Of a stretch of 30,195 nucleotides of DNA, positions 761-23,650 are shown in pieces. The DNA comes from Candolleomyces eurysporus (lineage: Eukaryota > Basidiomycota > Agaricomycetes > Agaricales > Psathyrellaceae). Within the stretch, counting starts at the first letter, position 1, and every line of letters starts with the position of its first letter. The notes under the pieces were generated by a model. It saw only the letters and a program-made list of their open reading frames with translations, was not told the origin of the DNA and made no database searches. The stretch is from positions 1 to 30,195 of the forward strand of contig JANBPK010001302.1 of NCBI GenBank assembly GCA_027579435.1, written 5' to 3'. The position numbers were made by a program, and so were the translations under genes.

Positions 761-1852
761 CTAGTACGCAGACCGTGGGCCGGCATTCCGCCACCTCCGA
801 AGCCTTCTAGCGGGGACCATCGCGCCAACTGTCGGATCCTGGTCCATACCTTGCGCACCCTGCGGGCTCATACCGCTCATCCGGATTCGCCTCCTGATCT
901 GCCCTCGGCGTCCCCCGCGCATTTGCCGCGCATCAAGCTCGGGAAGCCCATCCGAGGTCCTTGCTCCAAGCACGGGGACCTCGTCGAAAAGATCGAGCTC
1001 GCGCTCAGACAGTTCGGGAACATCGAGCTGGTTGAGCGTGGACATTCAGTTTCTTGGAGTACAGATAAACAGAGATGGAAGACGGCCAACGTACCTCTAG
1101 GCTTCTCTTCCTGGATCCTCCTGACAGGACTTTACCCATAAGAGCAGAAGTCAGGATCCCTGTAGCGGTCTGGGTCACAGGGTGGTTGAAAAATGCGCTG
1201 GCACCCTGCTTGAACCTGTCCCATTTGCTCTGAGCCACGCGTTTTTCGAGCTCGTCGATGTCAAAGTCGCGGTTATCAATGTCGGACAAGTCGAGCTGGA
1301 AATGCACAAACAGAGACCGTCAGCAAGCATGATAAAAGCGGCGTGGCTCCAGTGAGAACCCAGGTAGTCAGTAGACACGGACCTCGAGACTTCTTCTCCC
1401 TTGGCGGCGATTGGCGAAAGAATCCATGGCTCGATTCGCACCCCAGGTCGCGGCTGCTGAGATCGCGGTCGTACCCGCGGCTTGGACGATGGGAGAATTG
1501 AAGAACTTGCTGGCGCCCCTCTTGAGCGTATTCCACCACTCTGCTCGTGCTTCCAAATCGTCCAGGTCAAAGTGACGGTTATCTATCTCTGAGAGGTCCA
1601 GCTGGTATCAATAGAGTCAGCTGGTGCGGTGAAATGTGGTAGTGAGTGCGACTAACCTCTAGACCTCGTCTGAAGTTCTGAGTTGACGGTTCATCGAAGT
1701 TGACCTAGAATATTTGTGAAAGTGAGTTATTACTAGCACTTTTTCGCTTTCGAGAACGCAAATTTCAAAGCCAAACTGACCAGGGGTGCTGCAGATGCTT
1801 GAAGAGCAATGGAAAGGAAGACAAAACCAGCGGAGATAAAGTTGGTACGCAT
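761..1852 (-). CDS. Gene A: secreted Kex2-type multi-peptide precursor, two cores, extended basic tail
   Basis: Five exons on the minus strand: 1852-1781, 1704-1657, 1601-1383, 1295-1095, 1027-761. All introns (55-87 nt) are phase 0, giving 268 aa. Residues 1-24 form a signal peptide ending QASAAPL. Residues 25-40 end in the dibasic site FRRGLE. Residues 41-113 and 114-180 are two modules. Each begins with an acidic segment (LDLSEIDNRHFDLDDLEAR; LDLSDIDNRDFDIDELEKR), followed by a cationic stretch with an FNSPIVQ or FNHPVTQ hinge, and ends at RRSLE or KRSLE. The last exon starts LDVPELSERELD like the paralogs but runs into an Arg-rich tail of about 70 residues not seen in B or C. The start is fixed by the conserved MRTNFISAGF signal peptide and by the 5'-UTR intron ending two bases upstream. 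I infer dibasic processing and secretion of two cationic peptides. The function is unknown and the tail is the least certain part. Confidence 0.75.
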
Positions 1853-2094
1853 TTCTGCAGTTGTAATGGTCAGTCGGCAAGTGAGAATAGCTATACGGTG
1901 GCGACTTACTGACTGTATATGAATTAAAGATTGGTGGTAGTGGATTTGTTGACTATTGATTATTTGGGTTCAAATTCCTGCTTGTAGGGACCGGCCCTGT
2001 GAAAATTCCAATAGGAGAGGTTGAGGAGGAAATTGAATGAGAGAGAAGACCGGCTTCTTGCTGCCTATCCTCTCGCCTTCCTCTACCCTTTATA
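1853..2094 (-). promoter_or_regulatory. Gene A promoter and 5' leader
   Basis: On the minus strand, TATAAAGGG at 2094-2086 is followed about 30 nt later by the hairpin AGAAGCCGGTCTTCT (2058-2044; 5-bp stem, 5-nt loop). A pyrimidine-rich leader and the motif AGGGCCGGTCCCTA (1998-1985) come next. A predicted 5'-UTR intron (1909-1855, GTAAGT...CTGCAG) ends two bases before the ATG. The same elements recur in the same order upstream of the plus-strand paralogs. Confidence 0.6.
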
Positions 2095-2099
2095 CTGCT

Positions 2100-3340
2100 C
2101 AATACGAGTCCAACAAGCCCTCTGTAGATGCTTGTAGGTCCAGCCCTCCTCCGAGATTGATGATCAGACTTTTGAGGGCGGCTAGCCGGTGCATTCAATC
2201 AGCCTCGTGTGTCCATCATGCGTTTGTATTCAACCTCAGACAGTCTCTCTCCCCTGTCCCTGAGCATGCCTATTGCGAAAACAAGTGACATGTGTACGCA
2301 ACTTCGTCGTGATCCGATGTTGGCAACAGCCGTTGGTAGACAACGTCAGTGCTGTAGGTTCAATGAAACGTAGATATATCACGATGATCGCGGAAAATGT
2401 TAAAACGGTCACTGCCGCTCAATGAATGAGCTCGATAGAGATTTTCTGCTACTTTGCAGACCTTTGGGTCAAGGATCGTCATTCTTTGACTGGTTGCTTT
2501 GTCACGGTTCTGCGCTTGATAGTCAGATGGACCACAAAAAGTTTAAAGATCTCGTTCTTCGTCCCCTACAGAACCCGATTGCCTTAGGGATAGAATGGAG
2601 ATATAATCCTACAGATACAGCTAATTCAGTGTAGGTGCAGCAGACAGCCTTGCGCTTCCCTTTTGATATTTGCTTACAGCAACAGCAATCCAGCATCAAT
2701 AGACCAGAGCGCTCCGCGCCGCCCTTTTGATACCTGTTCAGCTGTGGAGCATACACACAGACATGACACCCAAACCTGGCGAGGGCAACCGCCATCTCAA
2801 GGGAACGGAGGGTGTCGACAGTTGCTTGAAGAGGAGGAGGCATAGTTAGTATTCTCACAGTCACATCTACTTCTACTACTTGACGCGATGGCTAGGATGA
2901 CTCAATTTTTCAGCACAAGTACAGCCATTGGGTTTGTTTGTTTGGTTTACACAAGTAAACAATTATCAAAAGCGGGGCCACTCGCCTTGTGTGGGATCTG
3001 ATCGCGTGAATGCTTCCGGCCAGGCTCCGAAGAGGGAGAGTAAAAGTGAGAGTAGGTTCGCTTCGGACCAGAAAGACCGAGAAATTTGGCCACGTGTGAC
3101 GTCACGTCACTCCGATTTACCACAGTACNAAAAAATCGCCGGGTTGAAAGAGCTCCTTCCACCGTTCGTTCTTCCTTTCCCCAACCATCCCCAACTATAT
3201 CTTATGAAAATGCTCTTTGTATTTCCTCTACCTTTTGATGTTCTCCCTAGTGGTCTAGAAAGCGATGGCCCAAAGGCATCTGACGGCGATGAAATCAGAT
3301 GAAGCCATATGATCTTGAAGCCAACCGATCTTACCTCATG
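2100..3340. other. Stretch without a recognised gene
   Basis: No reading frame here is convincing. About 2640-3003 holds scattered, partly inverted copies of a sequence like CTTTTGATATTTG (2652-2672; 2725-2745; inverted near 2957-2978) and an ATAGACCAGA-like string near 2698. These resemble the arms of the element at 7556-7816, so this may be a decayed relative. One undetermined base lies at 3129. Confidence 0.3.
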
Positions 3341-3348
3341 TTGCCAAG

Positions 3349-3591
3349 TTACCAGGTTTTGTAGCGGCGTCTCCTCTCCGAATATTTTCCTCGTCGTACG
3401 GAGCAAGTCGATACTGAAGGAGCATGGAGCTTGAGGCGAGCTTGGAGCACTTGAGGAGAGGGTCGGGCGCTTGGGGGAGTCGGAGTGGCCTCAGGCTCGG
3501 TGTGATCCGGGCATGATCCGCTGATGTGATAAAACTCCGACGGTGGTGGCTTCTTATTCGTTTCGATTTCATCATCGTCTTCCATCACCAC
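3349..3591 (-). CDS. Possible short divergent ORF, unrecognised
   Basis: An 80-residue frame begins MVMEDDDEIETNKKPPPSE and is rich in Pro, Ser and Glu in its first half and in Arg at its end. It lies divergently from gene M, whose coding region starts about 100 bp away. A second frame on the same strand (3336-3575) also looks protein-like near its end (YDEENIRRGDAATKPGNL). A splice-donor-like GAG|GTAAGA occurs near 3343, so this could be the first exon of a spliced or broken gene. I recognise no domain, and it may be spurious. Confidence 0.2.
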   Translation of the reverse strand: MVMEDDDEIETNKKPPPSEFYHISGSCPDHTEPEATPTPPSARPSPQVLQARLKLHAPSVSTCSVRRGKYSERRRRYKTW

Positions 3592-3685
3592 CCCACTTTA
3601 CTCCCGTTTCACTAACCTCCACCAGTCCTTTCTCTAACCCTACCTTACTAACTCCTATACTNTCCTTACCCTCCCTCTAACNACA

Positions 3686-4639
3686 GCATNCCTCGCACTT
3701 GGCTCGCTCTTCGCCCTCTCGGCGTCTGCTGGCTCCACAGGCCCGAACCAGTGCATCTCGTTCGACGCCTCCTGGAACCTCCTCGCCTTCAACTTTGATG
3801 GCAAGGACTACAATGCTGGCACCTAAGACGCTTTCTCGTCTGCCTCCTCCGCCTCAGCAACGGACATCACGACCACCGGCCGACCCCCCTTCGACGTCCC
3901 CACCTCCTCCCCTCTCTGCTTCCTCTCAAAATTCACCAACTCCATCTACGTGCTAAATGCTGACAAGTCCGACACCTCTTCGATCTACATCTATGACGCC
4001 ACAGCCAAGTCGTGGAGCAAGCAGAAGACCGGAGGCGCTGCGTCGAAGTCGTTCGACCCCTCGACATTTGGAGGCATGCCAGACCACGATACCAATGTGT
4101 TTTACGTTTTGAGTGGCGGAGAGATCCTCAGCTTGGATATGGCGTTGATGAAGGCGGCTGTCCCAGGCGAGCTGACGTGGAACGACGTTCAGAAGCCTGC
4201 ACTTGGTATCGAGGGTAGTGGTGCTTCTTATGAGCCCGTGCTGGCCTTGGCTCAGAACCACATTCATTTCTTGGGTGTTCCCTGGATGCCAGCTGGCAAA
4301 GCCAAAGTTTTCGTTATCCACTGTGAGCATCTGGCTATATTTATTTTGGGCCTTGACTAACGATGTAGTTTTAGATTCGTTCCTCCAGCCCGAGGCGCAA
4401 CCATACGGGTCCTTCCCAACGGCACATGGCAAGGTCGCATCGTTCTTTAAGGACACTGGCGTCCAAATGCAGTTTGCGTACATTCAAGACGATGCAAGCT
4501 CCACTTACGTCGTCGACGTCATCGCCAATACCATGCGCACCCTCCTTCCGCGCAGTACGCTGCCTCTCCTGATTCCCTAGTCCAGTTGGCATTGGAAGGC
4601 GGAAAATTCTCGTTCATCTCGTATCGCGTACCCTACTAG
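3686..4639 (+). pseudogene. Gene M: secreted beta-propeller-like (kelch-like) protein, interrupted
   Basis: The frame starting near 3686 encodes a hydrophobic leader (LALGSLFALSASAGSTG), then NQCISFDASWNLLAFNFDGK. It continues through YVLNADKSDTSS, IYIYDATAKSWSKQKT, FYVLSGGEILSLDM and NHIHFLGVPWM. An intron runs from 4323 (GTGAGC, after a phase-1 T) to an AG near 4370-4376, with a CTAAC branch-like site. The second exon reads through HGKVASFFKDTGVQMQF and TYVVDVIANT. Two defects are visible. A TAA at 3824-3826 breaks an otherwise continuous frame. A one-base deletion near 4545 moves the protein-like C-terminus (SPDSLVQLALEGGKFSF, stop 4637-4639) into another frame. The start codon is hidden by undetermined bases at 3682 and 3690. 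Repeated short beta-strand-like units with YVL, YIYD and FYVLSGG suggest a kelch-type propeller, but this is a visual judgement. It is either a real pseudogene or a gene with sequencing errors. Confidence 0.6.
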
Positions 4640-5589
4640 AATGATTAATTCAGCCTTCGCTTTGGTCGAAGGTGGTCTTTGTTCTCTTCTATTCACACGC
4701 TGACCTCTTCCTCCCGTCATGTCGCAGACTGAATACGGCCGTTCGTATCGCCTCAAGATATTATGCCCAGACATGACAGCTATCGCCGCGACCCTGCACA
4801 ACGACGGCGCTTGTTGTTCAGGGAACGTGGCAGAGGATGCCGTACTTATCTTTATGGGCGCTTGCCGGTTCTATATTGAGTGGCCCACGCGAGTGATACT
4901 CATCGTGTTTTTATCTTCAGAACACAGGGCTGTTCTATCTGGCAATCGACGTCCGCTAGCGCTGCTCATCCTCATCTTTCTTCTTGCTCCCATTCATCAG
5001 AGTGTGATCTTCAATGCGATGCGGCATAGCCAAATACCCTTATCCATCTTCTCCTGTGAGTACGTTCATGCGTCGTTGGAGCTCGTTCAATACATTCAAG
5101 AGAGCATCGACCGTTCGACGATGCGGGAAGATCATAAGCTAATCCGCGGCGGGAACGGGAGATATCTTCTTCCTCACGAAGATCGTGTCTATCTTTTAGC
5201 TCTGGTTCTGGCCATCTGGAATAGTTTTGGCTATCTAACGTTCGATTGAGAAGACGACAGGATGGGGCGCTAATTGATCCAGAACGGGTAATATCTTGTT
5301 CTGGTGGCAGTATCCATCAGAGTGTTGATGCTTATCTTAGTCTCCATGGGGTACCCTTGAACAGCAATAGTCGTTCATGGAAGTGCATTGATCGCTTCTG
5401 GTGACTCTGGTTCTGGAGAATCATTGGATACTCAAACAAATCTTCGATAGATAGGGGATTTGTTGATCTGCACGGGAACATGTAACATCTTCATATCTGT
5501 ACATCCCGAGAAGCGGTTCCCTTGAACATCAATGGTGATCATATCTATCTTTTCCTGTGACGAGCGGCTGTGGAAGTCCCCTCGGGCAG
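4640..5589. other. Upstream spacer of gene B, no supported gene
   Basis: A 176-codon open frame (4719-5249, plus) reads MSQTEYGRSYRLK and contains a hydrophobic run (LLILIFLLAPIHQSVIF). I recognise no family. The homologous region of copy 2 (about 7820-8200) does not keep the frame open, which argues against a conserved gene. A hairpin (CCTTCG / CGAAGG, 4654-4672) is preserved exactly in copy 2 at 7472-7490; it lies where a 3' processing signal of gene M could be. Confidence 0.4.
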
Positions 5590-5853
5590 TATAAAAGCGG
5601 AATCCAGGAGACGCTGAGGCGGGAAGGCAAGAAGCTGGTCTTCTCTTTCGTCTCTCTTCCTCGCCTCTCAAAATTTCCTCTCCTTCCAAACCCTCAATAG
5701 GGCTGGTCCCTACGAGCAGGAGCCGCGATATAACTGATCAATAGGCTTCTAACAGTCTACTAGCCTCGTTTCTGTTAAGTATGTTACCACTGTTTGTCTC
5801 GGTAAGGAAGGGCGAGGGACTGACACTCCCTCCTTGAATTCGCGACCGTAGAA
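5590..5853 (+). promoter_or_regulatory. Gene B promoter and 5' leader
   Basis: TATAAAAG at 5590-5597 is followed about 35 nt later by the hairpin AGAAGCTGGTCTTCT (5630-5644). A pyrimidine-rich tract and the motif TAGGGCTGGTCCCTACGAGC (from 5698) follow. A likely 5'-UTR intron (5779-5851, GTATGT...GTAG) ends two bases before the ATG at 5854. The order and spacing match genes A, C and G. Confidence 0.6.
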
Positions 5854-6728
5854 ATGCGCAGCAATTCCATCTCTGTTGGCTTTGTCTTCCTTTCCATCGC
5901 TCTTCAAGCATCTGCAGCACCGGTGGTCAGTCGATCTTCGACAAAATCTCTCCTCTCGAAAGTAAGGTGCTAATTGGGCTGAGTCCTTGGATACTTTAGC
6001 CTTGTAACGAGCCTCGGGCTCGACGAAACTTTAAAAGAAGGCTCGACGTGAGTCTTTCTCTCAATGACTGCCTTCTGCCTAGCTTACTTCATCAATATCA
6101 GCTGGATCTATCAGACATTGACAACCGCCACTTCGGTCTGGACGAGCTAGAAGCACGAGGGAAAATTTGGAATAAAATCAAAAGAGGCGCCAAAAAGGTT
6201 TTCAGCTCCCCCATTGTCCAGAGCATCGGCTCCGCGGCTCTAGGGGCCGTCACGAGCGCGGGCGTGAGTAGGCTCTTTGGATCAATAAAAAGAAGGTGTT
6301 TGGAGGTATGTATTCGACGATGATAATGACAATCCTAAAGGCGTTTCGTTGTGCTAATTGTGCACGTTTCCTAATAGCTCGACCTATCCGAGCTAGACAG
6401 TCGCGACTTCGATCTGGACGAGCTCGAAAGGCGCGTCGCTTGGAGCGGGTGGCAAAAGATTAAGGACGGCGCCAAGGCGGTTCTCAACTCCCCCATAACC
6501 CAGACCGTTGCGGGGCTCGGTACTACTTTCCTGGTGAATAAAATGTTGAGTCCGGGGCGCCAAAAGAGAAGCTTGGAGGTAGGTTTTACGCCTTGCCCAT
6601 TCCTCCGAGATTCTGGAGTCTGACTGATTGCCCGAAATAATTAGTTTGACGCTCCGGAGCTGAGCGAACGCGAGCTCGACTTTGTGGACTGGTTGCTTGC
6701 AGAAAGGAGCTTGGATAAATTAGACTAA
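5854..6728 (+). CDS. Gene B: secreted Kex2-type two-core peptide precursor (intact reference copy)
   Basis: Exons 5854-5925, 6000-6047, 6102-6305, 6378-6578, 6645-6728; every intron is phase 0; 202 aa. Residues 1-24 are a signal peptide (MRSNSISVGFVFLSIALQAS). Residues 25-40 are a basic linker ending NFKRRLD. Module 1 (41-108): acidic LDLSDIDNRHFGLDELEAR, then a lysine-rich amphipathic stretch starting GKIWNKIKRGAKKVF with hinge SSPIVQ, ending SIKRRCLE. Module 2 (109-175): LDLSELDSRDFDLDELERR, then WQKIKDGAKAVLNSPITQ, ending QKRSLE. Residues 176-202 form a short acidic tail (PELSERELDFVDWLLAERS). Cleavage after AR, RR or KR would release two cationic peptides of about 45 residues. The layout is seen in the sequence. 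Kex2 processing at KR/RR is established for fungal secretory precursors. Membrane activity, signalling or another role is inference. Confidence 0.85.
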
Positions 6729-7440
6729 TTGAAATCATATTTTAGAATTAGTGCTGGCAGAAAGGAATTTGAGATTGAGTAGTTCGAGGAATACACACGA
6801 ATTTGGCCTTCAGATTTTGCAATATTCTGAGCTTTCGAGGCTGCGTTCCTCAATTTCAGTTTGGCGTCTGCCACATTACGAAGCCGGGGGCCAGTACGTA
6901 CCTTCAGCAGCATACACACCTGAGCAACCTCAAAGCAACGCGCAAACTTGATGCGGGACCGTCGGATCGTCTTTGTCTTTTGACCCAATCTTCGACCATC
7001 ACCTGGGCCTACGAGGTACGAATGAGGGTGCGAGGTGCCCGACTACTCATTTGCGGATACAACCAAGTTTCACCATGCTAAAAGACACACAGGTATCATC
7101 GTCAGATTTATGCTTCGCTGAATTTCTCTCGCCGAATGATTGACTCTTGGAATCAGCGATGCGATCGAATCGCTTATATGCATTGCTGAAAGAATAGAGC
7201 AGAAGTACTACTCCCGACACGCCGTGCGTCTGAACCTTCTTTACTTTTGGGATTGGGCTGTGTCTGTACCCGTTTCGATTCGTTCTTAGGACACTAGCAG
7301 GTACCTTTGCCTCAGTCTCTCCGCTGCCGACGACTAGCAACATCATTTATCATTCATTCTGCGCTGTATAGTATACCATACGAACACTTAGCATATCCAG
7401 TCATCATTACGATAACGGCTGACCCGGACTATCACATATG
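6729..7440. other. Spacer after gene B, no gene seen
   Basis: Part of the B/C duplicated unit. Just after the stop, a short segment (about 6749-6781, GCTGGCAGAAAGGA) is a diverged repeat of the last coding bases (about 6697-6715). The same arrangement follows gene C at about 9728, so it predates the duplication. Nothing else is supported. Confidence 0.5.
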
Positions 7441-7555
7441 ATTGCGCACTCTGCTGTAATGATAAACTCTGCCTTCGCTTTGGTCGAAGGTGGTCTTTGT
7501 TCTCTTCTCTTCGCATTCGGGCCCCGTCATACTGCAGATTTTATATGGCCGTTTA

Positions 7556-7816
7556 CAGCTGTCGAGGAAACGATAGACCAGATTTCATTTTCCCCTGCTT
7601 TTGATATTTGTTTGGTGGCGTACCCAACCAAATACTCAAACGGGGCTGAATGTCAGCGTCGAGACCTTCCAAATGACTGAGGATGAGCGAAGTGGCGGTT
7701 GGAATTAGGAGGGCACAACCAGTTTGGGATGACCCGTTGTTTGTGATGCTCCAAAAGTAAACAAATATCAAAAGCAAAATGGAGCGGAATCTGGTCTATC
7801 GTTTCCTCGACAGCTG
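7556..7816. mobile_element. MITE-like element inserted at a TA site
   Basis: The left end (CAGCTGTCGAGG..., 7556-7584) and right end (to 7816) are perfect inverted repeats for about 29 bp, continuing imperfectly for about 35 bp through a CTTTTGATATTTGTTT motif. TA flanks both sides (7554-7555 and 7817-7818). Removing the element and one TA gives GTTTAAATCACTTCAAG, which aligns without gaps to GTTCGTATCGCCTCAAG in duplication copy 1 near 4740. That is good evidence for insertion with TA duplication, as in Tc1/mariner-type elements. No transposase is present. Confidence 0.75.
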
Positions 7817-7818
7817 TA

Positions 7819-8531
7819 AATCACTTCAAGGTATCATGCTTCAACATGAAGGCCACGCCACCTTCATGATAGTTATCACCGCAACCCTGCACAACAGTAA
7901 CGCTTATTACTCAAGGGACGTGGCCGAAGATATCGTACTTCTATGAATGGGCGCCTGCCTATTCTCTATTTAGTAGCCCACCACGTGAATGATACTAATC
8001 GCGTTTTCGTCTTCAGCGTACAGGGCTGTTTTACCTAGGAGTTGAATGGTTCTGTAGAGCCCCATTCAATACATTTGCAACAGCATTGGCTGTTCGATGC
8101 GCGAAAGTCGCGTCAACCCGCGGTAGGAGGGGGGGAGACATCCTCTGTCGCAAGTTTGGTTCCGGGCATCCGGAATAGTAGCATTAACTCTAACATTTAA
8201 ACCAAGAAGACAAGAGGATCGGCGCTAATCGACTCAAAACAGGTAATATCTTATTCTACTGGCAGTATCATCAAAACATTGATTCTAATCTAGCCCCGGG
8301 CCCCATGGGTACACTTGCGCAGCAAGAGCTATACAGATGATTGGCTTTGATATTCTGTTTGAGTCTGGCTCTGGAAAGGCACTGGCTACTCAGTCTTCAA
8401 TAACGTAGGGCCACTTGTGACTGCGCGGGAATATGTGACATCTTCTCGTCCGTACAACCCGAGAGGCGACTCGATTGAGGTGATCATATCCATTTTTTCC
8501 CGTGACGAGCGCTTGTGCAACTCCCCTGCAG
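7819..8531. other. Upstream spacer of gene C, no gene seen
   Basis: Homologous to 4755-5589 in duplication copy 1. Frames are broken here, and I see no gene. Confidence 0.4.
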
Positions 8532-8784
8532 TATAAAAGGTAGGATCGTGGTGAAGCTGAGGTTAGAAAGCAAGAAGCCGGTCTTCTCTCTCGTCTCTCC
8601 TACTCACCTCTCACAACTTCCTCCCCTTTCAAACTCTTAATAGGGCTGGTCCCTACGAGCAGGAATTTCATTGAAATAATCTTCTAAAGCATTACCGTTC
8701 TCCTTTCTACTCAGTATGTCACTACCGTTTGTCTTGACAAGGGCGAGCGACTGATCCTTGCTTCTTGAATCCACGACCGAAGAT
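8532..8784 (+). promoter_or_regulatory. Gene C promoter and 5' leader
   Basis: TATAAAAG at 8532-8539, hairpin AGAAGCCGGTCTTCT at 8573-8587, pyrimidine-rich leader, motif TAGGGCTGGTCCCTACGAGC from 8641, and a likely 5'-UTR intron 8714-8782 (GTATGT...GAAG) ending two bases before the ATG. Same layout as gene B. Confidence 0.6.
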
Positions 8785-9704
8785 ATGCGTGCCAGTTCTA
8801 TCTCTGCTGGATTTGTCTTCCTTTCCATCGCTCTTCAAGCATCTGCAGCACCGGTGGTTGGTCACACTTCAATAATCCATTTTTATTGACAAAGAGATCC
8901 TAATTTTTTTCCTTGTTTTCCTCGATCCTTTAGGCCTTCAACGAACCTCGGACTCGACGGAACTTCAAAAGAAAGCTATATGTGAGTCTTCATTTAAATC
9001 ACTACTGCTTGCACAATGTTTACGCTGTTGATATCAGCTGGATCTGTCAGACATTGACAACCGTTATTTCGGTCTGGACGAGCTGGAAGCGCGAGGGAAG
9101 TTCAAGGAAGCGTTCAAGGGAGCATGGAAATCCGTCAAAAAAAAGTGCAAATAAGGTCGCGAGAGGTGCTAAAAAGGTCATCAACTCCCCGGTTACCCAC
9201 AACATCGTCAAATCGGGTTTGCGGGCCGCCGCGGAAGCAGGCGTGAGTAGCATCTTCGGACCAAGCAAAAGGAGTTTGCAGGTATGTGTTCGATGATGTT
9301 GACAGCCGTAAAGGCATTTTATGGGCTGATTGTCTTTACACGTTTCCTGATAGCTCGACCTATCTGAGTTAGACAATCGCGACTTTGATCTGGACGAGCT
9401 CGAAAGACGCGTAGCCCAGAGCAAATGGCAAAAGTTTAAAGATGGTGCTAAAGCGGTTCTCAAATCCCCCGTAACTCAGAGGATTGCCGGCCTCGCTTCC
9501 GCTTTCCTTATGAATAAAATGATTGCAGGCATGCACCAGAAGAGAAGCTTAGAGGTATGATTTGCGTCTTGTAAAGTTTGTCGAGATTCTGGAGTTTGAC
9601 TAAATGTCTGAAATCACTAGCTTGACGCTCCTGAACTGAGCGAACGCGACCTCGACTTTGCCGACTGGTTGCTGGAAGAAAGGAGCTTGGATAGATTGGA
9701 CTGA
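8785..9704 (+). CDS. Gene C: Kex2-type two-core peptide precursor, one-base frameshift in core 1
   Basis: Exons 8785-8856, 8934-8981, 9038-9281, 9354-9554, 9621-9704, in the same order as gene B. Signal peptide MRASSISAGFVFLSIALQAS; basic linker ending NFKRKLY; module 1 starts LDLSDIDNRYFGLDELEAR; module 2 starts LDLSELDNRDFDLDELERR and has hinge LKSPVTQ and end QKRSLE; tail PELSERDLDFADWLLEERS. Exon 3 is 244 nt, one more than a multiple of three. The excess falls at an A8 run (9137-9144): upstream of it the frame encodes the acidic segment, downstream the homologous core (GAKKVINSPVTHNIV, ending SKRSLQ) lies in the next frame. As written, translation stops a few codons after the run. Allowing for the shift, the product would be about 215 aa. 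A homopolymer sequencing error is the simplest explanation; a true null allele is the alternative. Confidence 0.75.
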
Positions 9705-11244: not shown

Positions 11245-11417
11245 TATAAATGAAGACTAGAGTAGCTAAAGGAACCTTAGATCGCTTCTCTCCTCTTGAC
11301 TCTCACAGGGCAGGTCCCAATTCCGAACAATCAAACAAACGTCTTCAACCACGCAGGCCGTGTCTTTGACAACTTTATCTCTATCCCACTCTCGTCTACC
11401 ACCTGAACTTAATAAAT
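11245..11417 (+). promoter_or_regulatory. Gene D promoter and 5' leader
   Basis: TATAAA at 11245-11250, a CT-rich leader, and the shared motif AGGGCAGGTCCCAA (from about 11307). The hairpin of A, B, C, F and G is not clearly present. The segment TGTCTTTGACAACTTTATC before the ATG is essentially identical in gene E, marking D and E as the closest pair. Confidence 0.55.
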
Positions 11418-12371
11418 ATGCGCTCCACCATCGTTTCTGCCTGTCTCCTTGCTTTGACCCTCCTCAGCTCACAGGCCGCTTTGGCCCGACCTATCGTCAG
11501 TCCCATCCCTCATTTTATATGCCCTACTATGCTCACTTACCTCAATTTCGCAGGATTTTGAAGGCAGCACCGAATCCGACTTGGCCCTCAGAAACTCGGA
11601 TATCGTCGCCGATGGGTTGGAAGTCGACGCTCGTAGCGTTGAAGAGGTCGGCTCGACATTCTTTCTATTACAACAGACGGTTGATCTCTTCATGACATCT
11701 ACAGCTCTTCGAACAGCTCGAAGCCCGCACCAAGAGGCTTGCCGGTTCTCCACGAGGTGGTAGACCCGGAGGTTCCCCTCCACGAGGTGGTGCTGCACGA
11801 GGCGGTGCTGCACGAGGTGGCGGACAAAACCAAAGGCAAAGGGCAGGAAACCAGAACCAGAACCGCAACTCTGGAGGACGAAAAAGCACTGGAATCGGGA
11901 GAGCCATTGGCCGTTTCTTGAACTCCGGTACCGGACAGAATATCGCAACCACGATTGCGGGGGGGTATTGCGCAAAGGATAGCAAATGGAGGTCGAGGTG
12001 CTCAGCCCGGTATTGCGGTACGCAACAATCAATCTTTAAATGTGACCTGTTGTCTTACTTTCTCTGCTCTTCTAGCGACGAGAGCTAGAGGAGTACCTTG
12101 AGGCTCGCACTCGTCGTCGTGGAAACGGTGGGGGGCGAAAGAGCACTGGAATCGGGAGAGCCATTGGCCGTTTCATCAAGTCCGATGCTGGACAGAATAT
12201 CGCAAACACGCTTGCGTCGGGCGTTGCGCAAAGAATAGCAAATGGGGGTAGGAATGGTGCTGGTCAGCCCGGATATGTGCGCAAGCAATCAGTCTTTTAA
12301 TGTTACAGAGTGACTCACTTTCTCTGTTCTTCTAGCGCCGGGAGCTTGAGGAGTACCTCGAGACTCAGTAA
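11418..12371 (+). CDS. Gene D: secreted Gly/Arg-rich two-core peptide precursor, frameshift in core 1
   Basis: Exons 11418-11495, 11554-11646, 11705-12017, 12076-12276, 12336-12371; phase 0 throughout; 239 aa if the shift is ignored. Signal peptide MRSTIVSACLLALTLLSSQA; acidic exon 2 (GLEVDARSVEE). Exon 3 starts LFEQLEARTKR, then has a Gly/Arg/Asn/Gln-rich stretch (PRGGAARGGAARGGG), then a core beginning STGIGRAIGRFLNSGTGQNI. Exon 4 starts RRELEEYLEAR and repeats the core (STGIGRAIGRFIKSDAGQNI; VAQRIANGG). Exon 5 is RRELEEYLETQ and stop. The RR at each exon start is a natural dibasic cleavage site. Exon 3 is 313 nt, one too many. The excess base lies at a G7 run (11959-11965), after which the conserved IAQRIANGG lies in the shifted frame. 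The first intron-2 donor (GTCGGC) is weak. Confidence 0.7.
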
Positions 12372-12764
12372 GAGCAAACAAGGACTCCGGCTTTGGGAAG
12401 GCCTTCGATCATAATACCTTAAACTCTGAAACCGGACAGACGGTTGCGACCATCGTGAAGGCGAGATGACTATTGGCTTTCTTGATCTCGAGCGTGTACT
12501 CGTATCTAGTAGATATGTCAATCGAAAAGTGAAGATAGAGCGATGGAGGTCGAAAGCCAAGTCAGCATCTCGTGAATGGGAAGATGATATACGTGCAGAA
12601 TATTTGAATTAAGATCTAAACATAGGCGAATGTCATTTGAAGGATTCGCTCTCACCGCTGATGTCGGTGAAGTCACCGGCGGCACTTGCGCAAAACCTCT
12701 GCCACAACAGGTAACGGCATGAACAGATAAAGAAATGGTGTATTAATTTCATTGATGAACGGGA
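12372..12764. other. 3' flank of gene D, no gene seen
   Basis: Resembles the 3' flank of gene E: ATCGAAAAGTGAAGATAGAG occurs at about 12521 and 16158. No coding frame is supported. Confidence 0.45.
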
Positions 12765-12935
12765 GATGAAGGTTGGTTGCAAGGCAGATCGACGTTTGGC
12801 AACTTTCCAGTATGATCAGCATACGAGTGTCCCCACCAGCGTCCACAAAAGCGGATGGATACCCATAAAAGTGGGGAAGAACGAAAGGCTGACGAGCCTC
12901 TGCGCAAGTAGCAAGCTTGTCTTACAAATTGAAGG
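12765..12935 (+). promoter_or_regulatory. Relic promoter of a lost F-like gene
   Basis: The sequence GGGAGATGAAGGTTGGTTGC, then GTTGGCAACTTTCCAG, then CCCATAAAAGTGGGGAAGAA matches in order the promoter of gene F (GGGAGATGGAGACCGGTCGC, GTTGGCAACTTCCCGG, GACATAAAAGCGGGGGTGAA). The following AAGTAGCAAGCTTGTCTTAC looks like a decayed version of the leader hairpin region. No F-like signal peptide or coding exon follows, so this appears to be the fossil of an F paralog that once followed gene D. Confidence 0.5.
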
Positions 12936-13531
12936 GCCATCAGTACAAATTTGGTCAGTAGAGAAGCTACATCTGGTCAAGATCCGTAGAAGATATCATC
13001 AGACAAGCTGGCTTCAGCGAGATGTTCGCTTTTCGTCCTCTTGGTATCATCCCGACCAAGCCCAGCTCTACCGTTTGGGGGAGTCGGCCTCGCCGCCGAC
13101 CCACTACTTCTTAATGAAGGACGTGTATTTGCATTCGTGTCCTGTATTTCCTTTTCGACTGTGCGCGTTCGCTGAGTCCAATTCAGATCAGACTTGGGCA
13201 AAGCTCAGGTGGCGCCGTGGCGGTGCCGCGACGGGTGCGAAGGCGGAAATCAAGTTACAACGCTTCGCGAGGCTCGAGATCATAGCCTGTGTTCCAACTT
13301 CGTCTCCACTGTTTCCTGATCTTGTCCATGTGAATCTCCAGGCAATTGCGGAGTTCGTGATCAGTCCCACCTCAAATTGATGGATGGTANTTTTAAGTGC
13401 CGTTGGAGGGGTATTACTATATTCACTGCTTCTATCCCTCCATTCCAGGAAGCAGTCTTAGTCCAAGATATGTCATCGTTGCCCATACGCTTCTGACTTG
13501 AATTTTGGATAATCAAGTCCACAGCCAGTGG

Positions 13532-13675
13532 ATGCGACCGCATCGTTCAATAGTGTTCGGAGATTCGAAATTCCCGCAGGCCTTTCGGGTTGGCATGCAG
13601 GCTTTGGTCATGCTCGCTGACACCTCCATCGTTATCTTCGCCCAGGCTACGACGCACGATAGTGGTCAGGTTTGA
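13532..13675 (+). CDS. Short protein-like ORF or gene fragment, unrecognised
   Basis: A 47-residue frame from an ATG at 13532 reads MRPHRSIVFGDSKFPQAF, then a hydrophobic stretch ALVMLADTSIVIFAQATTH, and stops at TGA 13673-13675. Its composition looks more like real protein than its surroundings, so it may be an exon or relic. I recognise no family and see no flanking exons. Confidence 0.2.
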   Translation: MRPHRSIVFGDSKFPQAFRVGMQALVMLADTSIVIFAQATTHDSGQV

Positions 13676-13790
13676 TCTTGGTTTTTTCTTTCATGCGCGT
13701 CGCGCAAGGGGGCTTGGAATAGTCGTTGCTAGCTGTCAGTTATCTACCGAAGACTTGCCTCTGAGCGGAAACGTTCCGGGTGGACCTTTG

Positions 13791-13846
13791 ACTGTCAGTT
13801 TACTGACAGTACTAATGGAGGAATGCGTTTTCAGGACGCATTCTCC
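13791..13846. repeat. Two adjacent hairpins
   Basis: ACTGTCAGT/ACTGACAGT (13791-13799 and 13802-13810) forms a perfect 9-bp stem with a 2-nt loop. GAATGCGT/ACGCATTC (13821-13828 and 13836-13843) forms an 8-bp stem, extendable by GGA/TCC across a bulge. Role unknown; possibly a transposon end or chance. Confidence 0.4.
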
Positions 13847-15051
13847 CTTATTACAGGCGTTTATTTTTCTAGTGATTTCACACTGCGAAGAGGTCCAATG
13901 GAAAGTTCAACAGCACTCCTCTATCGAAGCGAAGAATCTTCCAGTAATCAAAGGGTATGTATCAAGACAAAAGACGCATGGAATTGATGGGGTGTACCTA
14001 TAAGTTCTTGAGTACTCCACCTGCTGGCTCTTATGCTGTGCCCGTTGAGAGCAGAATATCAGCAGCGTTTCATTGATACATTCTATAGAGGGGCTAATGC
14101 GAGCATCTCAGTGAAAGCATGAGCCTCTACAGTGTTCGTAATGGATTGAACAGTGGTTCAGCTTCTCCCTTGGCTATTTCCAAGGGAAGGACACTTCTGG
14201 CACCAGGGAGAGTGTCTGTTGAATTGCGTCGAAACGGGCAACACGTTTGACGAGCTCTCTGGCGTAGCGTCCCGTTTTGTACGTCTTTAAGTCTGAGCCG
14301 AAATAGTCCTTAGTTGAGGCCTGAAGATTATAACGCAAGGCCGGAAGGATATGCCCCGTTCCCCCAGCCAACGTTCAACGGCCACGAATGGCCGGCTCAG
14401 GCCTTTGAACTCCGGTCCCTTGCGAAGCAAAAACTAAATCAAACCTGGCCAGTGATCACTCCACTTATAACTTCCTACCTACCAGGGTCGCTTTGCGTCA
14501 TCGCTCGCTCAGCTGGTGCCTCATGTCTACAACCACCCCAAATCAGCATCAGCATCAGGGATCTTAGCAGCCAGAAGCCGCCCCGAAACCATTGCTTAAA
14601 GTTGTAATTAGTTGCAAGTTGCTTAGCGGCTTGGTACAGCTTGGGAATTGCGCTTCTCCGAACAGCTTGAGTGTCAAGTTACAGGATTCCACAACGATCG
14701 GAGCCACTGGTAACCGGCATCCAGTCGGCCATGGGTATCGCGGCTGATACAATATGTAACAGTGCCGACGATTTTCTTGGGAGGGAGGCTACGCCGAGGA
14801 GCCGGCTTGCTATTAAAAAGGTCTCCCCTGGGGTAATCGTCGCCAGAAAAAGGTACTAGACATCTGCTAACTGCTAAATATCCATTAGAGACCAGGGTGC
14901 CGAACAATCCAGGGTATCATTGCCAATGGAGTCTCATTGAGGAGTACAATGATCGTTGTCTGATGGTTGAATATTGAATTGCTTGGTTCATCAAGCATCA
15001 TTGAAACACTTTGTCATCGCATCGCTGCCAAGCCCTTGTCGGTATGGAAGA

Positions 15052-15229
15052 TATAAATGAGGACGGGGGCAACCACATGAACTCCAGGTCGTCTCTCTCC
15101 TCTCTCGACTCTAGTAGGGCTGGTCCCCATTGCAAACAATCGAACAAACCTCTTCAACCACGCAGGTCGTGTCTTTGACAACTTTATCTCTATCCCACTC
15201 TTCCTGTCTACGACTTCATCTCAGTAAAC
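15052..15229 (+). promoter_or_regulatory. Gene E promoter and 5' leader
   Basis: TATAAA at 15052-15057, a CT-rich leader, the shared motif TAGGGCTGGTCCCCATT (from about 15115), then AACCACGCAGGTCGTGTC and TTTGACAACTTTATCTCTAT, nearly identical to gene D. Confidence 0.55.
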
Positions 15230-16105
15230 ATGCGCTCCACAATCGTTTCCGCTGGCCTCCTCGCTTTGACTCTCCTCACTTCCCAAGCCGCTTTGGCCCG
15301 ACCTATCGTCAGCCCCATCCCCTCATTCTATCTGCCATATACTCACATACCTCAATTACGCAGGCTATCGAGGGCAACACCGAGGCCGACTTGGCCCTTC
15401 GAAACTCGGATATCGTCGCCGATGGGTTGGAGGTCGAAGCACGTAGCATTGACGAGGTTCGTTCGGCATTCTTCCCAATTTACAACGGACGGCTGACCTT
15501 TGCATGTCCTACAGCTCTTCGACCAGCTCGAGGCCCGCGCCAAGACCAAGGCTAAGCAGAGAGCTGGTAATTCTGGTGCGAAACCACGAGGTGGTGGCCA
15601 GAACAGGCAAAGAACTCAGAACCAGAACCGCAACTCTCGCCCACGAAATGGTGGCCAGACCAGGCAAAGAAACCAGGGCCAGAATCGCAACTCTGGGTCG
15701 CGGCAGCGAAACGGACCAAGCACGCTGGGCAGGATCTTGCGCTCGCCTGTGACTAGTAACATTGCAACCACGCTTGCTGGAGGTGTTGCACAGAGGATCG
15801 CGGGTGGTGGTGCTCCCCCTGCTGAGGGTGTTGAGGTAAGCAAGCGAAAGCACCCGTTGAATTCATGAATCAGGTTACTCACCTCGTTGCCCTTTTAGCG
15901 ACGAGAATTTGAGGAGTACCTCGAAGCTCGCACCCGTGTTAAGGGCAACCGAAGGCAGAGCGCCCCCAGACAGAGCACCCCACGCACGAGCTCTGGCATT
16001 GGGAGGACCCTCAACCGTGTCTTGAACTCTCAAACTGGGCAGACGGTTGTGTCCACTTTGGCGGACGGTGTTGCACAGAGAATCGCTAACGGAAGTCAGG
16101 GCTAA
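15230..16105 (+). CDS. Gene E: secreted Asn/Gln/Arg-rich two-core peptide precursor (intact)
   Basis: Exons 15230-15307, 15364-15456, 15515-15835, 15899-16105; phase 0; 232 aa. Signal peptide MRSTIVSAGLLALTLLTSQA (1-22), acidic exon 2 (27-57, GLEVEARSIDE). Exon 3 (58-164) starts LFDQLEARAK, then carries about two and a half copies of a roughly 20-residue Gln/Asn/Arg/Gly repeat (GGQNRQRTQNQNRNS; GGQTRQRNQGQNRNS), then a core STLGRILRSPVTSNIATTL followed by GGVAQRIAGGG. Exon 4 (165-232) starts RREFEEYLEAR and ends with a second core (SGIGRTLNRVLNSQTGQTV; VAQRIANGSQG). The SPVT hinge links this subfamily to genes A-C. It lacks the short final exon of gene D, ending straight after core 2. All frames are intact, which makes it the best reference for D. 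Function unknown; a secreted cationic peptide source is inferred. Confidence 0.85.
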
Positions 16106-16507
16106 TTATCCAATGGCTATGTTAATTACGAGCGTGTTGAATTAGTAGATATCCCAATCGAAAAGTGAAGATAGAGTGATGTGGGTCGATTGAGAACGTG
16201 ACGCTTGAAGACGATCTCCCTAAACGATTAGCAGTCTGGTATCCTGCAGAGCCCATATCTTGATGGTTTCAATCAGAGTCAATCAATGTGAAGATGGTTT
16301 CCTCATACCGTCGGTGTTGGTGAACTGAGACGAGGCCCATTTGCGGCGCTTGAAACCCATGAATAACCTGATGAACAGATTAAAATGGTGTGCACACAAC
16401 TGATGTCCGGGAGATGGAGACCGGTCGCAAGCCGGATTGACGGTTGGCAACTTCCCGGCTTATTTAACGGGAAAATGGACCTATCAGCACCTACAAATGA
16501 GAGTAGA
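16106..16507. other. Spacer between genes E and F
   Basis: 3' flank of E (shared with D) running into the upstream region of F (shared with the relic at 12765). No gene is seen. Confidence 0.5.
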
Positions 16508-16681
16508 CATAAAAGCGGGGGTGAATGAAGGGTTGGACAGCAAGAAGCAGGTCTTCTCTCACTCCCTAAAACTTCTACACATTCAATTCAATTGGGCAGG
16601 TCCCTCAGAGCATACTTTTTCAATAATTAAATCAACTCGCCTCCTCCCTTAGCCCCACTTCTTCATTTTAACCAACCCAAA
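16508..16681 (+). promoter_or_regulatory. Gene F promoter and 5' leader
   Basis: CATAAAAG at 16508-16515 stands in the TATA position. The hairpin AGAAGCAGGTCTTCT lies at 16543-16557, followed by TTGGGCAGGTCCCTCAGAGC (from about 16592), the family leader motif. No clear 5'-UTR intron. Confidence 0.55.
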
Positions 16682-17285
16682 ATGCGTACCAATTTCATCT
16701 CCACTGGTTTCCTCGTCCTCGCCGTGATGGCTTTCCAAGTATCTGCGGCACCCGTGGTCAGTCGTTTCTCAAACTGAGGTATAATTGTAGGCGCCGACTT
16801 CTTCAGATTTTCACTGTACGCCAGCTATCATTGGAGCCAAACCCCAACGTCAGACGAAGCATGCAGGTGAGCGGTAGCTTAGTGGTGTGGGCTTCGCTCT
16901 GATGCGTCAACTCCGCTTTGTTAGGGTGATATTTCGGATCTCAAAATGCGGGAATTGGAGTTTTTGGAAAGGAACCTTGAAGAAGACCTTCTGCCCAGAG
17001 CACGGCTGCTTGGGGAGATGAACAGTGGCAAGTCCCATGATTTACATGTAGGTGTTTCATCCATACCATCTTCTCTCAAAGGAAACCATTGGTTACTCAC
17101 TCGTTTTTATCTAGCCCTCCGACCTCAGGTTGAGCGGACGCGATCTGCAAGGCCTTCTCGAGCTTGATGAGCGCGACCTCGAAGACCTTGAGGGCAGGTT
17201 CGTCGTTCTGCCCATGCTTGCCAAATGGGGACCGACAGCTTTTCGGGCGGCTCAGGCGGTGTACAAGAAGGTTCGAGGCCAGTAG
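16682..17285 (+). CDS. Gene F: small divergent family member with a single C-terminal cationic core
   Basis: Exons 16682-16756, 16825-16866, 16925-17047, 17115-17285; all phase 0; 136 aa. Signal peptide MRTNFISTGFLVLAVMAFQV (1-22, ending SAAPV) is clearly related to A-C. Exon 2 (26-39) ends VRRSMQ, the equivalent of the basic linker. Exon 3 (40-80) is acidic, MRELEFLERNLEEDL then LPRARLLGEM. Exon 4 (81-136) begins with an acidic run (LELDERDLEDLEGR) and ends with a cationic stretch VLPMLAKWGPTAFRAAQAVY followed by KKVRGQ and stop. A Gly-Pro sits centrally where the Ser-Pro hinge is in the others. Cleavage after EGR would free one peptide of about 29 residues. The shared leader and promoter support family membership; the rest of the sequence is strongly diverged. 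Confidence 0.65.
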
Positions 17286-18265
17286 AGTAACCGAGTAGAG
17301 AGCCGTTGATATGCGCCATCGTGCAGAGCGCGAAGCTGCTTAGAATAGAAAGAATATCGTACTTTGTTCTACATCCCAGTTTTATACTCGAGCGTGAAGT
17401 CAAGATTTGCAGGAAACAATCCTCAAGATTCTAATCAATGGTGTTAACTGTCCAAGAAAGAGTTTACGGTCGCATGTAACATACTGTTGGAAGAGAATTG
17501 CCAACGGGTCAATCACTCGGAATACGGCCTGAGGTCGTGCCTGGCACATAACTCCCCGCATGCAAAGGCGTTAAGCCAAAGTCAAGTTGATTCCGCAAAT
17601 GGCGGTAACACCTTGAACGCCAAGGGAGCCTCATCTCGCCAGGTAGCATCGTGATCTCGTAATTGACAAATTGATTCCAACGGAACGACGAAAAATAATT
17701 CCACGATGGAGATGATACATCTGTGCGGAATGTGCGGGTATGATTGAAGGAGTGATTGCAAATATTCAGACAGTCTATCGAATCTAAATATTACGGGAGG
17801 GGGCGTATTGTCTCGTAGATGGACAGACAGTCGGCGTCAACATCATACCCACTTCCGTGTCGGATCGCTTCGGCGGAGTCACTGGACTCCTAGGGCTGCC
17901 CCATTATCCCGTCGAAGGAAAACTATGCATAACTTATGCATGTATCAATCGTAGAAACAAGATCATAGGGAGAGAAATTAAGATTGAAGCTCACGCCCTC
18001 AAGACCTCGGAGAGCTGCCATAGACGTCAGTAGCCTGTTGATAATCAACAAAGGATGTATCACCTAGTAGGGCTATCTTCATAAGCCTTTCAGCAGCCGA
18101 TAAGGAAGGACCCTCTGGCACCCATAGCCACCGCCTACAGGAACCTGATGAACAGATACGAACAGCCGAAAGTGGACAGCAACCAACACACTGGTGGTGA
18201 TGAAAGAAATTGAAGATGTTACTTGATGCACCTACAAGTCCACTGAGCCAAACACCTCAGCAGGG
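17286..18265. other. Spacer between genes F and G, no gene seen
   Basis: No supported frame. Toward 18130 the sequence (AACCTGATGAACAGAT) matches the F upstream flank (AACCTGATGAACAGATT at about 16366), showing that G and F upstream regions are related. Confidence 0.45.
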
Positions 18266-18494
18266 TATAAAGCGAGCATGGATTGGAGAGTTTGAAGCCA
18301 AGAAGCAGGTCTTCTCTCTCGTTCTCCTACTCTCCCAACACCATTCTCAGCAGGGCCGGTCCCTAAAAAGAGCAGACACTTTCAACAAATAAAGAAATCT
18401 ATCCTTCAAATACACCTTTCCAACCTCAAATAGCCAGTAAGTCGACATTGTACCCAGGACTAAAGCAGGAAAACTGAGGAATGCTGCGGTAGAA
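18266..18494 (+). promoter_or_regulatory. Gene G promoter and 5' leader
   Basis: TATAAAG at 18266-18272, hairpin AGAAGCAGGTCTTCT at 18301-18315, motif CAGGGCCGGTCCCTAAA (from 18351), and a 5'-UTR intron 18437-18492 (GTAAGT...GGTAG, 56 nt) ending two bases before the ATG. Confidence 0.6.
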
Positions 18495-19523
18495 ATGCGT
18501 GCCAACATCATCTGCGCTGGTTCTCTCGCCCTCGCCATGACTCTCCAAGCCTCTGCAGCACCTACCCAGAACTGGAAGCGTGCGCTCGAGGTTAGTACCA
18601 GCCTCCATTGTGAACTATCAATCTCCATGGATCTTAATTCACCCGGTTGTGATCTTTAGCTGGACCTCTCAGAAATCGACAACCGAGCTTTCGACCTGCT
18701 GGACGAAAGGGAAGCCCGCAATCTCGGTCAAAGATTCATAAACAAAGTCAGTGCGTTCGTCAAGTCCCCCACCGTCCAAGCCATCAGGTTCTGCCGTTGG
18801 CTCGACCCTTTTGACGGCTGCTGTGGGCCGAGTGATCAAGAGAAGTCCAGAGGTATGTCGTATTCGAACGTTTTGGTTACCAATGAGCTCGAGAGCTCAA
18901 ATCTGGTCATGATTCCCTTCTAGCTGGACCTCTCCGAGATAGAAAATCGCGACTTCGATCTCGACGAGCTCGAGGAACGAGAGCCTCAACGAGGGAGGCC
19001 TGCTCCAAGGCCCGCCGCCAGGTCCGGGATGAATCTCCCGTCGACTAACGCCATGGCCAACACTCTCAAGAGAGTTGGTTCATCTCCCACTGCTGGCAGG
19101 GCCCTTCAAACCGCAGCCCGGGGGGGCTCGGAGGATAATCACTTCGCCTACCGTGAAGAACTTGGCCGCGGGAGCTGGCAGATTCATTGGCCGTCTGATT
19201 GGACCGAGGAGCTTGGAGGCACGTACTTCAAGATTCTCTCCACTGATCGCATGCTGATGCAGGACGCGTTTAATCAGGGTGACTTTACTGAACTCAGTGC
19301 TCGTGACCTTGAGCTTCTCGAACAGTTGCTCCAACGAAGGGAGTTTGACGGAAGCGTTGGCCCTATGAAACGAGGGTTTAATGTAAGCGTCAGCGCACTG
19401 TTGCATAAGAATTGTCTAACGCACCCATTCCAGCCGGCGGATGAGCTCGAGCTCAATGAACGCGCTTTGGACGTTCTTCTGGAGCTGGTGACAAGGGATC
19501 TTGAGCTGAACGAGCTCGACTGA
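18495..19523 (+). CDS. Gene G: Kex2-type peptide precursor with two frameshifts and a GC-AG intron
   Basis: Proposed exons 18495-18590, 18660-18852, 18924-19218, 19263-19382, 19434-19523, about 263 aa if the shifts are ignored. Signal peptide and first linker share exon 1 (MRANIICAGSLALAMTLQAS, then NWKRALE). Module 1 starts LDLSEIDNRAFDLLDEREAR, with hinge VKSPTVQ and end IKRSPE. Module 2 starts LDLSEIENRDFDLDELEER, with hinges SSPTAG and TSPTVK and end PRSLE. Acidic exons follow (LSARDLELLEQLLQRRE, ending MKRGFN; then PADELELNERALDVLLEL). Exon 2 (193 nt) and exon 3 (295 nt) are each one base too long. The shifts map near 18786 and to a G7 run at 19120-19126, within core-coding sequence. Intron 19219-19262 has a GC donor (GCACGT), where the pseudogene copy H has GTACGT. 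Alternatively, keeping the extra G and retaining this 44-nt intron leaves one open frame through to the stop. Confidence 0.7.
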
Positions 19524-21320: not shown

Positions 21321-21328
21321 GGGTCGCC

Positions 21329-21915: not shown

Positions 21916-22065
21916 GCCGATACTAAAGGAGGGGGCTGCCTTTAGTGATTCTGCAATAGAACCATCTTTCCTCAACTCCGTTTCTGTATGTTGGTGAGCC
22001 GGCTAAAAGGATGTAACTGGTATACTGCTAACAAAGCGAATCATTTGACCGTGTCCACAATACAT

Positions 22066-23281: not shown

Positions 23282-23650
23282 ATCAGTAGGCTAGAAGCTA
23301 GATATGGCTCTTTATACGAAAGATGGGATTCTACTGTTCTTGAGGATGAATCAAGGATGAAGGTTCATAAAGCGCGCCGCCTCATGTCGGAATGACCCTT
23401 TGCTGGCAGGCCAACACGCTTAGGTGTAAGCACATGTAAATAAGCGCAAAGAACGCGTAAATAGACTCCCCCATCACGAAACCTCTGGGCCTTTTCCTTT
23501 CAACTACGCACCACCATTCTCAGCGGTTGCCCGTAATCAGAGCCATCCTCCAGAAATTGGCTTCTGTTAGGCCGCACTAGACCCGACATCGACAAACTTA
23601 GGAGGCCGACTGATCCCCCGCGCCAATATGAGGCGCAGGTGGGTCAACAC

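Follow-up and report, generated by a model that had tools for sequence, protein, structure and literature searches.

The secretory precursors that come closest to those considered here belong to the published KEP class of fungi, in which a signal-like N-terminus is followed by repeated units with KR or RR between them, and in which the sequence types are mostly limited to one genus (PMC6339444, PMC7329392, PMC9769878). KEP surveys require at least three repeats (PMC6339444, PMC7329392), and most KEP-derived peptides are described as being without known function (PMC9769878). Ece1 is a secreted precursor that is processed by Kex2 and then by Kex1 to give candidalysin, an amphipathic, membrane-active peptide of 31 residues (PMC5784256; PMC8787473). 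The complex precursors of spiders, such as those of the cupiennins and latarcins, combine a signal peptide, an anionic propeptide, cationic peptides and anionic linkers, and the linkers of these cytolytic peptides open with an Arg that precedes Glu and finish on an Arg with Glu nearby, as summarised in the PQM/iPQM rule (PMC7889660). Here, we describe a gene family in Candolleomyces eurysporus, a member of the Psathyrellaceae (Agaricales), as seen in a stretch of 30,195 nucleotides (hereafter the window; contig JANBPK010001302.1, called C313) of its genome (65.9 Mb in 1296 contigs). We lean towards regarding the family as KEP-like modular precursors that would be secreted and processed by Kex2-type proteases into membrane-active cationic helix-hinge-helix peptides of 30-54 residues.

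A first-pass annotation, made from the letters of the window, had recognised an array of seven precursor genes of uniform layout and knew of no named family to which they could belong. Seven family genes do lie within 761-19523, gene A on the minus strand and genes B to G on the plus strand, and this stretch is bounded by the gene A stop codon at 761 and the gene G stop codon at 19523. The array itself is wider, with about 14 gene positions. The secretory multi-peptide precursor layout stands, with the qualification that genes D and E form a separate subtype and gene F has no repeated module. The published KEP class fits the layout, and a relative with five modules in C. efflorescens displays it, so that the claim of a layout without a named family is not supported.

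Modular architecture of the precursors

Genes A, B and C follow a common plan of a signal-like exon, a 48-base pro-exon, module 1, module 2 and an acidic tail, with introns placed between codons (phase 0); by reading, all seven window genes encode a hydrophobic N-terminus whose end is signal-like. Each module consists of an acidic linker ending in LExR, a core of 30-54 residues and then KR or RR followed by SLE, the core being divided into a cationic amphipathic half, a Pro hinge (SP or HP) and an Ala/Gly-rich half. The acidic linkers, the AR, KR and RR sites and the Ser-Pro hinge were found as first described, with His-Pro occurring as a further form of the hinge. Alignment of 18 modules revealed invariant residues at D2, L3, S4, D7, R9, F11, L16, E17, R19, W23, G29, P37, R65, L67 and E68, and all 18 close with KR or RR, one residue, L and E. 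Over four contigs, 29 of the 33 listed module exons have exact AG/GT flanks and a length divisible by three; of the other four, two were taken one codon short and two, both of gene G, are frame-broken.

The likeness to the KEP class lies in the signal-like N-terminus, in the KR/RR sites between repeated units and in the apparent restriction to one genus, and is completed by the C. efflorescens protein MD484_g7752 (P0003), whose five tandem modules reach the repeat count of the surveys. In contrast to KEPs, window genes A and B hold two non-identical modules with long acidic linkers between the cores, the site at module 1 is mostly a monobasic LExR, and the cores are cationic and 30-54 residues long. 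With two modules in genes A and B, the window genes are KEP-like rather than formal KEPs, and since the surveys require at least three repeats, two-module precursors such as these would be expected to escape them.

Members of the family were found in Candolleomyces only, among 5.8 billion proteins searched. The protein search needs shared short words, and one search scored the best 7993 candidates by shared words; distant relatives may therefore be missed. Besides P0003, C. efflorescens contributes g7756 and g7758, the longest contig listed for each of these three being 50813 bp, and C. aberdarensis contributes the D/E-subtype members EST38_g11412 and g11413. Uninterrupted relatives exist in both of these other species. 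Among the papers listed in searches of openly accessible, formally published literature, none described the family.

Two module types and their rates of change

A tree of the 33 distinct modules separates a module-2 group of 13 from a module-1 group of 20, each recovered in 100 of 100 replicates (the bootstrap is rough, and the root serves for drawing only), from which it follows that the two-module plan predates the copying of the genes. All five repeats of the C. efflorescens protein sit inside the module-1 group. Pooled NG86 comparisons of paralogues (21 and 28 non-independent pairs, drawn from seven module-1 and eight module-2 exons) gave an omega of 0.13 for module 1 and 0.10 for module 2 in the linker, 0.48 and 0.59 in the core, and 0.37 and 0.04 in the closing five residues. 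Thirteen allele pairs (also NG86) yielded 0.16 overall, 0.09 in the linker and 0.21 in the core. A lack of purifying selection on the modules had been named at the outset as a finding that would speak against the proposal; with a linker omega of about 0.1 and an allele omega of 0.16, purifying selection is evident. Slow linkers alongside faster cores are the pattern expected of diversifying peptide precursors, although positive selection is not demonstrated, because no omega exceeds 1.

Charge, amphipathicity and predicted structure

The mean charge is -4.9 in the linker and +4.0 in the core. In the first core half, the hydrophobic moment exceeds that of shuffled sequences (p<0.05) in 27 of the 32 mutually related cores that could be parsed from 36 modules, the four unparsed ones being left out, in agreement with the cationic amphipathic cores of the first-pass annotation. 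In a low-confidence AlphaFold model of module 1 of gene B, two helices, at residues 13-34 and 37-66, are separated by a break at the SP. A search of PDB sequences with the module alignment returned a single match (E 2.2), which was taken as chance.

Putative processing sites and proteases

The linkers of the family carry the same marks as those of the spider precursors. Glu occupies a position -2 to -4 from the final Arg of the linker in 31 of the 33 distinct modules, the two exceptions being the last C. efflorescens repeats (LAVR), and an Arg at the linker start is followed by Glu within the next three residues in 31/33, both misses being exons taken short. The PQM/iPQM rule is thus obeyed at each end in 31 of 33 modules, a likeness of layout only. 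The linkers differ in length: those of the family have 23 residues, apart from the final two repeats of the C. efflorescens protein with 13, whereas the spider linkers have 11-13 (PMC7889660), and unlike the spider precursors, the family modules are separate exons in a fungal host.

On its N-terminal side, the core is preceded by a monobasic site in 24 of the 33 modules and by a dibasic one (LEKR or LERR) in the remaining nine, all of which are module 2. Cleavage at single basic residues has an apparent fungal precedent in the KEPs of C. cinerea, which when expressed in Pichia gave peptides apparently cut after a single Arg (PMC9769878). The second position of the core is Ala or Pro in 29/33, as opposed to a frequency of 0.19 in the remaining core positions, and such a start would be compatible with an Ste13-type dipeptidase. 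No KR or RR interrupts the first core half in 29 of 33 cores. In profile searches, the C. eurysporus genome was matched three times by the Kex2 P-domain and once by DPPIV_N.

With respect to Ece1/candidalysin, the family is predicted to follow a similar processing plan, a likeness drawn from published descriptions; dibasic sites on both sides of the core, as in candidalysin with its KR sites, are seen in nine of the 33 modules. Each Ece1 precursor yields one active peptide (PMC5784256; PMC8787473), whereas the A-C precursors hold two core types each, together with acidic linkers, and belong to a large cluster.

Resemblance to scorpion antimicrobial peptides

The profile of the scorpion antimicrobial peptide family (PF08102) matched seven of 18 modules at E<=1, with a best value of 8.4e-6, and none of 50 shuffled-core controls. 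In a six-frame search of the complete genome at E<=10, it gave eight matches, all of them module-1 cores of the family, while none of 14 control genomes (those named being prokaryotes) was matched. Two of the eight genome matches lie above the curated 25-bit cut-off; the joined modules of gene B score 31 bits, the exon of the C77 allele 26 and the single exon in the window 24.2-24.4. Profile position 1 coincides with the first residue after LExR in four of the eight, as observed for both gene B alleles, where that site is LEAR, and extrapolated for gene A and its C77 allele. The organism and the precursor are other than those of the scorpion peptides, and module-1 cores alone are reached. Since the scores lie near the cut-off, the resemblance, drawn through the profile, is one of type, and convergence is probably the better reading than shared descent.

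A match of P0003 to Pardaxin (31.3 bits) was discarded, as the score sums five repeats of which no single stretch passes, and P0003 also collects 18 other families, mostly plainly unrelated.

Extent of the cluster and its shared leader

Module 1 of gene B, used as query against the whole genome, produced 35 matches at E<=0.001 out of 40 scored candidates, with a best value of 2.7e-39, and every one of the 35 falls on contig C313, C77, C1262 or C307; a G-type protein of C. efflorescens gave 12 matches, on the same four contigs only. Exon searches and contig comparison together place about 14 gene positions on these overlapping contigs, namely four on C307/C1262, one common to C1262 and C77, gene A, genes B to G, and two on C77 (about 10.5-17.7 kb) that the corresponding part of C313 lacks. 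Copy number differs between the overlapping contigs. Identity amounts to 96.1% over 22 kb between C313 8046-30195 and C77, to 97.7% in the C307/C77 overlap and to 96.3% in that of C1262/C77, and C1262 1-27940 has no match longer than 500 bp at >=90% to the other three contigs. Tiling of the overlapping contigs, irrespective of haplotype phase, gives the cluster an approximate length of 50-55 kb.

A leader element, GGGCNGGTCCC, has seven copies in the window, one per gene and 88-154 bases before each start codon: at 1987..1997 on the minus strand for gene A, and on the plus strand at 5700..5710 (gene B), 8643..8653 (C), 11308..11318 (D), 15117..15127 (E), 16594..16604 (F) and 18353..18363 (G). 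Seven occurrences were reached in none of 100 shuffles. Across the genome, 22 sites were counted for the 13-base form GGGCNGGTCCCTA, and 20 of these lie on the four cluster contigs; the reversed control has three sites in all. The two sites elsewhere, on contigs C475 and C1151, have no family member downstream by reading, that on C475 being followed by an unrelated secreted-looking frame; both are taken as chance on this ground and because the reversed control gives three. The common leader suggests shared regulation or merely shared descent.

A second element, around AAGAAGCNGGTCTTCTC, stands upstream of the leader element in most of the 14 genes examined. In window genes A, B, C, F and G, it lies 43-62 bases before GGGCNGGTCCC, and it is near a TATA-like box except in gene F. 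This element is possibly an intron in the 5' untranslated region or a conserved transcript start.

Proposed mode of action

For KEP-like precursors of membrane-active peptides, the features above would combine as follows. The acidic linkers would neutralise the cationic cores and hold them inactive during transit. Kex2 would cleave after KR/RR and also, in the majority of module-1 units, behind the lone Arg that ends LExR, with Kex1 trimming the basic ends and an Ste13-type dipeptidase trimming the XP/XA start present in 29/33 cores. On membranes, the peptides would adopt a fold in which a Pro hinge connects a cationic amphipathic helix to a second helix rich in Ala and Gly. Module-1 and module-2 peptides would be released jointly and may act as a pair, and the shared leader would couple the expression of the cluster. 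Judging from the sequences, the released peptides, two kinds per A-C precursor, would probably permeabilise the membranes of competitors or predators. The earlier expectation of one or two peptides of about 30-50 residues per gene is thereby sharpened to two conserved peptide types, with cores of 30-54 residues, in precursors of the A-C type.

Among KEP-derived peptides, the family offers a concrete prediction with predicted termini: membrane attack by paired cationic helices masked by acidic linkers. Were it true, fungi would have arrived at the precursor logic known from spiders and at a core type close to that of scorpions, and one more family of peptides would become antimicrobial candidates.

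A broader proposal, which we put forward tentatively and with appreciable doubt, is that a venom-style arsenal arose independently in a mushroom genus. In it, 12-14 co-regulated precursors with the linker grammar of spiders would, for the most part, each deliver a pair of peptides that converge on the scorpion type and jointly form pores in bacteria, competing fungi or grazers.

Several observations weigh against membrane-active peptides released in this manner. An internal KR is found in the first half of four of the 33 cores (module 1 of gene A, both alleles of module 1 of gene B, and module 1 of gene 5 on C1262), and KK or RK in that of six further cores, so that Kex2 might split such cores; RR in the second half of 14/33 could shift the C-terminus. 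These internal dibasic sites are a real difficulty for assigning exact peptide termini. The PF08102 match is modest, the single window exon remaining below the 25-bit cut-off, 11 of 18 modules are without a match at E<=1, and no module-2, D/E or G core was matched in the whole-genome search; the register also varies, with profile position 1 one residue later in two of the eight matches and four later in two others. Amphipathicity at p<0.05 is seen in just three of 32 second core halves and in none of 32 linkers. The helix-hinge-helix model of the module is of low confidence (predicted local distance difference test, pLDDT, of 58.9 for the module and 38.9 for the whole precursor). Genes C, D and G are frame-broken on the window contig. 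For other KEP-derived peptides, from C. cinerea, tests that included bacterial growth revealed no specific function, and kep knockouts had no phenotype (PMC9769878).

Alternative explanations

The best surviving alternative, unlikely in our estimate, is that Kex2 processing yields signalling peptides, similar to the alpha-pheromone-like KEPs known from basidiomycetes, which would act via a receptor rather than on membranes. The KEP-like layout suits this explanation, as do the Ste13-compatible XP/XA starts of 29/33 cores, Ste13 signatures having been reported in basidiomycete KEPs (PMC6339444). The cores are, however, 30-54 residues long, as against 9-24 for alpha-type pheromones (PMC6339444); their positive charge, their amphipathic first half and their diversification between paralogues (omega 0.48-0.59) are unlike the ligand of a single receptor, and some match the scorpion profile.

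A shade less plausible are surface-active structural peptides that would coat hyphae or fruiting bodies in the manner of Rep1 of Ustilago maydis. Rep1 and Hum3 are repetitive basidiomycete proteins with Kex2 sites, and according to published descriptions the peptides of Rep1 repel water and form fibrils (PMC7329392, PMC9769878), yet the cores studied here, at a mean net charge of +4.0, are cationic and amphipathic in their first half and rich in Ala and Gly in their second, and 12-14 diversified copies fit an arsenal better than a coat.

Still harder to credit is the idea that the proteins remain uncleaved and act whole as helical secreted effectors, their acidic ends recalling the DELD proteins of Serendipita (Piriformospora) indica. 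The DELD proteins are likewise small secreted basidiomycete proteins, of 101-135 amino acids, with a His/Ala pattern, two predicted helices and an RSIDELD tail (PMC3192844), to which the acidic tails RSLDKLD, RSLDRLD and ELNELD come near. Membership of the DELD group was nevertheless rejected, given that the exact RSIDELD is absent, that the gene B product is modular and 202 amino acids long, that no His/Ala pattern was evident by reading and that the family has processing sites. The closing KRSLE/RRSLE residues are moreover kept (omega 0.37 and 0.04), which speaks against proteins that are never cut.

A decaying gene array without present function is very improbable: C, D and G are frame-broken on the window contig, a degenerate copy of G lies nearby and copy number varies between overlapping contigs, whereas the allele omega of 0.16 and linker omega of about 0.1, the open copies of A, B, E and F and the uninterrupted relatives in two other species all argue for maintenance, and the assembly is a draft, so that some frame breaks may be sequencing errors.

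Genes of the window

Copies of A, B, E and F are open in every exon, while C, D and G are the frame-broken ones. Gene A (NCBI H1R20_g13444; 761..1852, minus strand) comprises the signal exon at 1852-1781, the pro-exon at 1704-1657, module 1 at 1601-1383, module 2 at 1295-1095 and the tail from 1027. Its module 1 (1383..1601) joins an acidic linker to a cationic core with an SP hinge and RRSLE, and its module 2 (1095..1295) has the linker end LEKR, an HP hinge in the core and KRSLE. The depositors' model P0001 supports gene A, with a C-terminal tail spliced unlike the open frame read here.

Gene B (5854..6728, plus strand, as are all that follow) has its signal exon at 5854-5925, pro-exon at 6000-6047, module 1 at 6102-6305, module 2 at 6378-6578 and tail at 6645-6728; module 1 is the best PF08102 match of the window, and the product ends in RSLDKLD. 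Gene C (8785..9704) ends in RSLDRLD; its module 1 (9038-9283) is broken in the window and interrupted on C77 as well, and module 2 (9354-9554) is intact.

Genes D (NCBI H1R20_g13446; 11418..12372) and E (15230..16105) represent the Arg/Asn/Gln-rich subtype, with LEAR sites in gene D. The depositors' P0011 supports gene D and skips a stretch over the frame break, and an uninterrupted model, P0010, apparently derives from C77. The cores of gene E centre on LGRILRSPVTSNIATTLAGGVAQRIA and IGRTLNRVLNSQTGQTVVSTLADGVAQRIA, and the gene is supported by the depositors' model P0006, again apparently from C77. Gene F (16682..17285), the weakest member of the family, consists of a signal exon, acidic exons and a single C-terminal cationic stretch after LEGR. 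Gene G (18495..19523) has a signal exon, two broken modules and an acidic tail ending in ELNELD, and its uninterrupted relative in C. efflorescens is P0005. Remnant exons of a degenerate copy of gene G, without the leader element, extend over approximately 21331..21912.

Repeats and neighbouring genes

The regions upstream of genes B (4623-5582) and C (7441-8527) have direct repeats of 49-117 bases in common (76-86%), and because of these shared repeats, the two genes resemble a segmental duplication that included the promoters. Between genes B and C, a perfect 33-base inverted repeat with a 203-base spacer is located at 7552-7820. Another inverted repeat, at 128-481, has 75-base arms that are 93% complementary around a 204-base spacer and has the appearance of a hairpin or small transposon-like element.

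At about 3674-4580, frames of a secreted-looking protein contain an in-frame stop, and the longest piece has no Pfam match. On the minus strand at 19668-23290, two tandem paralogous genes look to encode proteins with multiple membrane spans; pieces of them match PF11196 (DUF2834) at 4e-8 and 1.4e-4, the second falling just below the cut-off. Two paralogous secreted-looking genes occupy about 24590-30176, and two pieces of these that were tested gave no Pfam match.

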